Positions 47,512-52,553 of a DNA stretch of 64,000 bases are shown in pieces; the first letter of the stretch is position 1, and each line of letters begins with the position of its first letter. A program made the translations under genes and the position numbers. This stretch comes from Phycisphaeraceae bacterium. Lineage in GTDB: Bacteria > Planctomycetota > Phycisphaerae > Phycisphaerales > SM1A02. The DNA is taken from NCBI GenBank assembly GCA_015709595.1, contig CP054178.1, positions 3,477,205 to 3,541,204 of the forward strand, read 5' to 3'. Below the pieces are notes generated by a model that saw only the letters and a list, made by a program, of their open reading frames with translations, did not search any database and was not told the DNA's origin.

Positions 47512-47567
47512 CGGGTCGGATGGCTCACGCAGCCGCACTATGATTGCCCCACGCCAGGAGGGCTCGC

Positions 47568-50576
<3,009 letters not shown>

Positions 50577-50732
50577 CGATTCCGCGCGTTTTCAGCCGGT
50601 TTCTCTGGCACGACGAGTCAGAATGTGGGACAATCGTTGATAGCCGAGGGCGCCGAGGGGGCGCAGGATCGTGGCTCGCGCTCGCCGACGGCGTTCCAGA
50701 CATCCATTCTTCAGCCACGCCGGAGGTGCGCC

Positions 50733-52157
50733 ATGCGCATGCTCGCCAATCGTCGTGAGGCGGCGTTGGAACTCGCCGAGGCGCTCGCCTTCCTGGAAGG
50801 CGAGGAGGTGGTGGTGATGGCCCTGCCGACGGGGGGCGTGCCCATCGCCATCGAGATCTGCAAGCGGCTTCGAGCGCCGCTGGATGTTCTCCTGCTGGCC
50901 AAGCTCCACGCGCCGCGCATGCCCGACCAGGTGGCCGGCGCCGTGGACGAGCATGGCCGCATCTCGCTGATCGAGTCGGCGGCTCGGTGGCATCACCTGA
51001 CCACGCAGAAGATGATCGCGCCGGCCCGCGCCGCCTTCCGCGACCTGCAGCGTCGCCGGTCGCTGTACCGCGCGCTGGCCCCGGAGCAGGAAGTGCGCGG
51101 CCGAACCGTCATCATCGTGGATGAGGGCATCGACGACGAGGCCGCCACCATGCTCGCCGCCGTGGCGTCGGTGCGCGATCGCGGCGCGAAGAAGGTGGTC
51201 GTCGCCGCCCCGGCCGGCTCCGAGAAGGGCATCTGGCAGCTGCATGAGACGGCCCACATGGCCGTCATTCCCCACAAGCCGTCGAAGTTCCGAGGCATCG
51301 ACAAGTTTTACGCGGATTACACCCCGCTCTCTGATTCAGCGGTGCTCGCCATGCTCCGCAGCCACGCGCTGGAGCAGGGCGTCTCGCCCACGCAGGTGCG
51401 CTCCGTGGCCATGCGCGTCCTGGCCGACGGCGAGCGATTCATCTACTGCGAGATGGACATTCCCCCTGGCGAGGGACCGTTCCCGGCGGTGGTGTTCGCC
51501 CACGGGTTTGAAAGCGACTGCCGCAGCCCCCGCTCCGTTCCCACCAGCATGCGGCTGGCCAAGCGCGGCGTGCTGGGTGTCCGCATGGATTTCATGGGCC
51601 ACGGCCGCTCGGAAGGCGACCGCGATGCCTGCACCCGCGAGGTGATGCTGCGCGACCTGCAGACCGTCTATGAGAGCGTGCGATGCGACGAGCGCGTTGA
51701 CCCCGATCACATCGGGCTGTGCGGTTCGGGCGTTGGCGGACTGGTGGCGCTCGAGTTCGCCTCCCGCGAGCCGCGCCTGGGCGCGCTGGTCATCCGCGGA
51801 CCGATCTGCGGCGGCGAGGTGGACGCGGCGTCGGCCATCAAGGCGCCCACCCTGCTGATTCACGGCGAATCGGACAAGTCGCTCTATCCCGACGTGGCCC
51901 GGATCAACGAACTGCTGGGCGCGCGGCACCGGCTGCTTCAGATCCCCGAATCCAACCGGCTGTTCAGCGACCCCATCAGTTTTGAACTCATGGTCAACGC
52001 CTCGGTGGACTGGCTGGTGGACTACCTCAAGTACTTCCGACCCGTGGAGCCGCCGAGTGAGATCGTGACCGACCACGCGGCAACCGCCGCCCCGGTGATG
52101 GCTGAGGAGCCCCGGACGGTCGATACGCCGACAGAAGCCGCCTCGTCAGAGGTCTGA
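50733..52157 (+). CDS. Phosphoribosyltransferase-like / alpha-beta hydrolase-like fusion (active-site residues degenerate)
   Basis: 474 residues from ATG 50733 (GGAGG six bases upstream). Residues 1-215 are PRTase-like (MALPTGGVPIAIEICKRLRA, LDVLLLAKLHAPRMPDQVAG) but the PRPP loop reads VIIVDEGIDDEAATML where active enzymes have VDDGxATGAT. Residues ~225-430 are an alpha/beta hydrolase (FPAVVFAHGFESDCRSPRSV, GVRMDFMGHGRSEGDR); the nucleophile elbow is GLCGSGVGGLVAL, where family members have G-S-S-x-G, so the Ser is Gly; the Asp is kept (HGESDKS) but the final His position reads PESNRLF. Both halves may be non-catalytic. Fusions of these two domains are known in actinobacteria and others. Tail overlaps the convergent yraN gene by 12 bp. 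Confidence 0.8.
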   Translation: MRMLANRREAALELAEALAFLEGEEVVVMALPTGGVPIAIEICKRLRAPLDVLLLAKLHAPRMPDQVAGAVDEHGRISLIESAARWHHLTTQKMIAPARAAFRDLQRRRSLYRALAPEQEVRGRTVIIVDEGIDDEAATMLAAVASVRDRGAKKVVVAAPAGSEKGIWQLHETAHMAVIPHKPSKFRGIDKFYADYTPLSDSAVLAMLRSHALEQGVSPTQVRSVAMRVLADGERFIYCEMDIPPGEGPFPAVVFAHGFESDCRSPRSVPTSMRLAKRGVLGVRMDFMGHGRSEGDRDACTREVMLRDLQTVYESVRCDERVDPDHIGLCGSGVGGLVALEFASREPRLGALVIRGPICGGEVDAASAIKAPTLLIHGESDKSLYPDVARINELLGARHRLLQIPESNRLFSDPISFELMVNASVDWLVDYLKYFRPVEPPSEIVTDHAATAAPVMAEEPRTVDTPTEAASSEV

Positions 52158-52553
52158 CGCGAACGCCCCGAGAAAGTGCGTCACATTCGGCGCCCCGCCC
52201 TCGGGCCAGACGATCGCTATCACGTCGAATCGAAACGGGCGATCGCGATACTCTCTCCGCCGCGCCAGCACCGCCGCCAGCCGGTTCAGACGATGCCGCT
52301 TTCGACCATGCACGTTCTCCTCCGGTCGGACGTCGTCGTCGCGCCGGGTCTTCACTTCGACGATGACGACGGTCCGCCCGTCGGGATCAAGCATGACCAG
52401 GTCGGCTTCATCCTTGCCCACGCGCAGATTGCGATGGAGCACCCGGTAGCCGCGCGCCGCCAGCCAGCGGGCGGCCTCGTGCTCGCCGCAGTCGCCCAGC
52501 GGGTTTCCACCCCTTCGCCAGGCGCCCACCCACCGCCTCAGGAGATCGATCAT
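52146..52553 (-). CDS. YraN/UPF0102 family putative endonuclease
   Basis: 135 residues, ATG 52553 (ATGA overlap with the lipoprotein gene). CGEHEAARWLAARGYRVLHR, then NLRVGKDEADLVMLDPDGRT and VVIVEVKTRRDD: the E-x(n)-D-x(n)-E-V-K pattern of the restriction-endonuclease-like UPF0102 family. Size is normal. The family is Holliday-junction-resolvase-like in fold, but cellular role is unsettled. Converges on and slightly overlaps the PRTase/hydrolase fusion gene. Confidence 0.88.
   Translation of the reverse strand: MIDLLRRWVGAWRRGGNPLGDCGEHEAARWLAARGYRVLHRNLRVGKDEADLVMLDPDGRTVVIVEVKTRRDDDVRPEENVHGRKRHRLNRLAAVLARRREYRDRPFRFDVIAIVWPEGGAPNVTHFLGAFASDL

Follow-up and report, generated by a model that had tools for sequence, protein, structure and literature searches.

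The fusion gene and its domains

The window (64,000 nucleotides of contig CP054178.1 from a Phycisphaeraceae bacterium) carries, directly downstream of uvrA, a gene in which a phosphoribosyltransferase (PRTase) domain is followed in the same chain by an alpha/beta-hydrolase domain. It is a single open frame, from an ATG at 50733 to a stop codon ending at 52157, behind a good Shine-Dalgarno sequence; a sequence-only reading of this DNA had given these coordinates exactly and had noted the good Shine-Dalgarno sequence. A UPF0102 gene on the opposite strand (window positions 52146-52553) shares 12 bases with the 3' end of the fusion gene. The features of the locus are as follows.

47544..50576, + strand: uvrA, directly upstream and on the same strand (Pfam UvrA domains; conserved neighbour)
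50722..50726, + strand: Shine-Dalgarno GGAGG, 6-nt spacer to the fusion ATG (sequence)
50733..52157, + strand: putative PRTase-hydrolase pseudoenzyme fusion gene, 474 aa (translation; orthologues align from the same ATG)
50733..51377, + strand: PRTase domain, TT1426-like, about residues 1-215 (1wd5 match, PF00156)
50823..50840, + strand: PPi loop L31-P32-T33-G34-G35-V36, canonical Arg33 lost
50943..50966, + strand: stretch D72-E73-H74-G75-R76-I77-S78 (with V71), invariant in 20 rows
51120..51149, + strand: PRPP loop DEGIDDEAAT, degenerate and with one residue more than in any aligned relative
51390..52040, + strand: alpha/beta-hydrolase domain, about residues 220-436 (PF12146; 7q4j and 2o2g fold matches)
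51723..51737, + strand: nucleophile elbow G331-S332-G333-V334-G335, Ser replaced by Gly (alignment)
51873..51875, + strand: triad acid Asp381, kept (alignment)
51957..51959, + strand: Arg409 in place of the catalytic His (alignment)
52044..52154, + strand: C-terminal tail, residues 438-474, unconserved and of low confidence (pLDDT <50; alignment)

Over residues 5-209 the protein aligns with TT1426, a PRTase-fold protein of Thermus (1wd5; E 2.6e-27), and the domain scores 41.9 bits against PF00156 (Pribosyltran; cut-off 26.3). PRTases of the TT1426 type (1wd5, Thermus thermophilus) go under the name COG1926. The hydrolase domain passes the cut-offs of both PF12146 (Hydrolase_4, 55.3 bits; cut-off 27) and PF01738 (dienelactone hydrolase, DLH, 30.5 bits; cut-off 21). 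An AlphaFold2 model, computed from an alignment of 18 family members, reached a mean pLDDT of 81.2. When compared with experimental structures, its PRTase domain superimposed on 1wd5 with Z 24.9 (rmsd 3.0, 205 aligned residues), and its hydrolase domain on the lipase 7q4j with Z 32.1 (rmsd 1.6) and on the dienelactone hydrolase 2o2g with Z 27.8 (rmsd 1.9). Both domains are thus predicted to keep intact folds. No DNA-binding family occurs among the protein's 11 Pfam rows. PADLOC profiles returned 0 families at E up to 0.01, so the protein matches no catalogued anti-phage defence family.

Catalytic residues of the PRTase domain

The PRPP loop of the window copy reads D130-E131-G132-I133-D134-D135-E136-A137-A138-T139, the degenerate motif that the sequence-only reading had pointed out. 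That reading had proposed asking whether homologues lack the same residues. The aligned orthologues do, which is more than chance would give: the PRPP Asp-Asp pair is found in 0 of 19 orthologue rows and in 37 of 37 homologous PRTases, a comparison set that includes the intact paralogue of the window's own genome (L048). The first Asp alone is kept in 12 of the 19 rows and the second alone in 1. Arg33 of the PPi loop (LPRGG) has disappeared from all 20 rows and is present in 34/37 homologues; its column holds Asn in 19 rows and Thr in the window copy. Arg56 shows the same pattern (0/20 versus 34/37), and Glu65 survives in 5/20 rows versus 37/37 homologues.

The rows span 13 genera, and some are near copies from one genus. 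Left out of the tally were L035 (a copy of L031), L032 (a copy of L004), L039 (no PRTase part), G457 and the partial members of genomes G467 and G013; the row of L040 stayed in and accounts for single odd letters. Read by eye, the partial member of G467 has SQG at the PRPP pair and ANGG at the PPi loop, and that of G013 has PNGG at the PPi loop.

The loop as seen in the window is nevertheless more degenerate than in its relatives. The T/S/K-G of the phosphate loop is kept in 18/19 rows and the window copy alone lacks it (reading DDEAA), so that its eye-catching motif is partly private. What holds for the family is the missing Asp pair; the lost T-G and the extra residue belong to the window copy. 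The same counts bear on the idea that this is still a PRTase, of low activity or altered specificity, which tolerates the loss of the Asp pair and of the Arg and goes on using PRPP. The retained T/S/K-G and first Asp would fit such an enzyme, but no aligned row covering these sites has the PPi-loop Arg, Arg56 or the Asp pair, Glu65 is gone from 15/20, and the window copy has lost T-G as well, which makes this explanation improbable.

Catalytic residues of the hydrolase domain

The hydrolase domain presents a similar picture. The Gly at the nucleophile (GSGVG) and the Asn/Arg at the His site are as described in the sequence-only reading, and by alignment the losses extend to all orthologue rows. 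The nucleophile Ser (column 333) is present in 0/18 rows and in 28/28 homologous hydrolases, whose activity is assumed from their residues; the family has Gly in 17 rows and Ala in 1. The catalytic His falls in column 409, occupied in the window by the Arg of N408-R409, and is likewise present in 0/18 rows (Arg 17, Ala 1) versus 23/28 homologues, the other five seeming to be misaligned there or differently laid out. The triad acid persists (column 381: Asp 16, Glu 2). This tally left out L035, L032, L040, L041, L038 and G457; the ends of L040 and L038 resemble contig-edge artefacts.

A structure with an alternative catalytic Ser or Cys, for example the adjacent one, had been named as one observation that would overturn the loss of catalysis. 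Both positions vary among the 18 rows: residue 332 is S in 14, A in 3 and T in 1, and residue 330 is C in 1, N in 10, V in 6 and A in 1. Neither Ser332 nor Cys330 is therefore a family-wide replacement, and we reject both as a feature of the family.

Selection and new invariant residues

Close relatives are under purifying selection. In five close pairs from three genera, dN/dS per domain ranged from 0.05 to 0.19. Whole-length values were higher for L034-L038 and L033-L038 (0.30 and 0.31; per domain 0.08-0.19) because a contig-end tail in L038 inflates them, and the pairs L011-L012 and L008-L036 were saturated and gave no value. These estimates come from pairs of relatives, the nearest relative of the window gene being 57% identical to it.

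A decaying gene or a sequencing artefact would account for the private one-residue insertion and lost T-G of the window copy. However, the frame is open, the insertion is in frame, the Shine-Dalgarno sequence is good, and the genome is a single contig at 99% completeness; identity of 45-57% across genera and the dN/dS of the relatives also argue against it. For the window copy we consider decay or artefact extremely unlikely, and for the family the dN/dS values lead us to reject decay. Residue loss throughout the family together with dN/dS of this order points to a selected family with both sites dead.

New residues have meanwhile become fixed. The family alignment (A1) contains 33 invariant polar residues. 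In the DEHGRIS stretch, D72, H74, R76, I77 and S78 each occur in at most 8% of the 37 homologues, and E73 (16/37) and G75 (26/37) are common there. Residues conserved in the family and present in at most 25% of homologues include D72, H74, R76, I77, S78, H88, T90, R99 and W168 in the PRTase part, and S272, R274, K277, R278, R284, F287, H290, H399, R409, D413 and S416 in the hydrolase part. Judging from strand order, the DEHGR turn would lie at the edge of the sheet, away from the old PRPP site. Selection combined with new invariant residues is what one expects of a protein whose job is no longer the ancestral chemistry.

That job could itself be catalytic, and a new enzyme is the main rival to a binding function. 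Invariant residues offer candidates for a new active or metal site, either D72-E73-H74-R76 with H88, or H257, H290, S293, D308 and H399 of the hydrolase part. The number of invariant polar residues would fit this, and the near absence of D72, H74, R76 and H290 from homologues (at most 3%) is as a new site predicts. Yet H257, D308 and S293 are also common in the control hydrolases (25, 25 and 10 of 28), and the invariant Arg, Lys and Asp could equally be interface residues. We regard a new enzyme as possible, if rather unlikely.

Distribution and origin of the family

Fusion orthologues, counted as matches beyond the level of stand-alone PRTases and including fragments (G457, G460, G467, G480 and G013), occur in 23 of 181 genomes and 15 of 45 genera of the window's planctomycete family, with 45-57% identity to the window protein. 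An even sample of the class yielded 2 matching genomes of 397 at E 1e-40, both from that same family. In a sample of the phylum (392 genomes, E 1e-20) the window's own copy was the only orthologue, and neither sample held orthologues outside the window's family. Two further whole-length matches in the phylum sample (29-32% identity) are L069, an intact PRTase-hydrolase fusion, and L070, where a hydrolase gene lies next to that of the PRTase.

In the tree of the PRTase part the family forms one clade (support 100/100) on a long stem (length 1.36), with the window copy branching first at weak support (83/73) under a midpoint root. The tree of the hydrolase part gives 51/66, which does not confirm one origin for that domain, and singles out no sister group. 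In 20 of 37 homologue loci, several of them near copies, the PRTase has a hydrolase homologue on its own strand no more than about 1.5 kb away (fused to it in L069); intact PRTase and hydrolase thus form a common module. The 17 of these 20 linked hydrolases that were tallied keep the Ser and fall in one tree group apart from the dead family. An ancestral PRTase would have joined an alpha/beta-hydrolase, with fusion preceding the loss of both sites; the simplest course is that this loss happened a single time, ahead of the divergence of the sampled genera.

A stand-alone PRTase relative accompanies the fusion in 16 of 23 genomes, the window's own included. There (L048:1501-2145) it is an intact TT1426-like PRTase with DDG and PRGG, located between thiS/thiG-like genes and an iron-sulphur-assembly-like gene (names by eye). 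The fusion protein could be the partner of this active-looking paralogue, regulating it in mixed oligomers, and the co-occurrence and the intact motifs of L048 would suit such a role (L048 and L043 are the stand-alone copies whose residues were checked). However, 7/23 genomes show no stand-alone copy, and for four of them (G013, G019, G020 and G029) a search scoring all candidates found none. Allowing for incomplete genomes, this argues against a general role, and we consider the partnership very unlikely.

The uvrA neighbourhood

The fusion gene starts 156 bases after uvrA in the window. Twenty-two of the 23 fusion genomes were examined (the fragment G457 was left out); contigs of G003 and G481 end too close, and in 18 of the 20 informative genomes uvrA lies upstream on the same strand, 0.1-2.0 kb away. 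It is not adjacent in G028 and G467. A simple scan, covering sigma-70-like sites only, found no promoter or terminator between the two genes. An ABC-2-type permease precedes uvrA in 10/13 readable fusion loci and in an eleventh, L066, and it also accompanies uvrA in one genome without the fusion (G007).

Eleven of the 18 genomes in which uvrA is adjacent encode a small membrane-type protein, C3, between it and the fusion gene. C3 matches 43 of the 181 family genomes but not the window genome, and 30 of the 43 have no fusion, which weakens C3 as a dedicated partner. In 12 family genomes without the fusion, neither the fusion nor C3 was found within 1.5 kb of uvrA, some flanks ending at contig ends. 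C3 proteins (among them L031:3344-3832, L055:7496-7930 and L060:7375-7806) are about 145-210 aa long, have a hydrophobic stretch at the N terminus and show, by eye, a conserved pattern HLHL...FGA...PW...GPAWCLE; the gene overlaps the uvrA stop codon by 4 bases in 5/9 called frames. No Pfam match was obtained for three C3 proteins and no PADLOC match for one.

Two further observations concern these neighbourhoods. Loci of one genus carry, just downstream of the fusion, a convergent gene for a Macro-domain protein (L057:9429-9968, L056:2399-2995; Pfam match for the L057 copy). In the window's UvrA, a stretch that follows CGQPTC and runs to HACGRPI seems, by eye, to widen a cysteine motif.

For a link between the fusion protein and UvrA or DNA damage, position is the one pointer. 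Because part of the synteny around uvrA is general, adjacency says little about function, and we do not accept it as proof. A specific form of this link would be a two-headed receptor for a nucleotide or alarmone, encoded in the uvrA operon, in which the dead PRTase and the dead hydrolase together tune nucleotide excision repair in these planctomycetes; we hold it to be quite improbable.

A probable binding or adaptor function

The reading we favour, and think probable, is that the fusion genes form a pseudoenzyme family in which a TT1426-type PRTase and a hydrolase, both with lost sites, have been selected as a non-catalytic binding or adaptor protein. Since the relatives share the losses and the protein is kept intact, it probably binds rather than catalyses the old reactions. 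The suggestion of a conserved fold without catalysis is well supported for the ancestral chemistries by residue loss, purifying selection in the relatives and a good model; a nucleotide sensor, which the sequence-only reading had also proposed, is plausible.

Most members retain the 5'-phosphate loop (T/S/K-G-A) but lack the acidic residues by which the ribose of PRPP is held, and such a pocket could still bind a phosphate or nucleotide and not turn it over. In the hydrolase domain, Arg409 at the His position and the invariant R274, K277, R278 and R284 would favour an anionic ligand or partner, and the DEHGRIS hairpin is a candidate surface for either a partner or a ligand. With the phosphate loop also gone from the window copy, its function would have to rest with the hydrolase side or the hairpin.

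Two unrelated enzyme domains thus appear dead in one chain, with both losses seen in a single sequence in 13 genera and, in a fourteenth (G467), across two contigs of one genome. Given the selection on relatives and the new invariant positions, the family is a compact example on which the conversion of two joined enzymes to a binding protein can be tested. Automatic names such as phosphoribosyltransferase or alpha/beta hydrolase would probably mislead about its chemistry; a comparable misannotation has been published for APRT2 (PMC8836349).

Comparison with known systems

With TT1426 (1wd5) the family shares the PRTase fold and homology over residues 5-209. It differs from TT1426-type PRTases in its new DEHGRIS motif and in that no aligned row covering the sites has the PPi-loop Arg, Arg56 or the Asp-Asp pair. 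With 2o2g and 7q4j it shares the alpha/beta-hydrolase fold, without the triad Ser and His.

PurR, a Bacillus transcription factor, keeps its PRPP motif, unlike the dead fusion family. It is the nearest worked precedent found for a dead PRT domain acting as a nucleotide receptor: the domain is reported to bind PRPP and ppGpp and to lack enzymatic activity (PMC8789054). The likeness is one of principle, in that a PRT pocket has gone over from catalysis to binding. PurR binds PRPP and carries a DNA-binding domain, whereas the family has a dead hydrolase as second domain and has lost the PRPP residues. T. brucei APRT2 is described as an inactive PRTase isoform, a kinetically inactive paralogue (PMC8836349); it is a eukaryotic APRT whose abstract mentions no hydrolase domain, and the likeness is by description, not by sequence.

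Among open-licence papers, judged by title and the start of the abstract, we recognised no description of the dead fusion family. Intact counterparts are known. Rv0571c of Mycobacterium tuberculosis is presumably another intact PRTase-hydrolase fusion; two papers on it treat its regulation (PMC12090744, PMC2275270). L069 carries both domains in one chain and in the order seen here, passes the Pribosyltran and DLH cut-offs, and keeps DDG, GxSxG and the His, whereas the dead family keeps none of the three. An intact PRTase-hydrolase fusion already exists, and it is the apparently doubly dead branch that is new.
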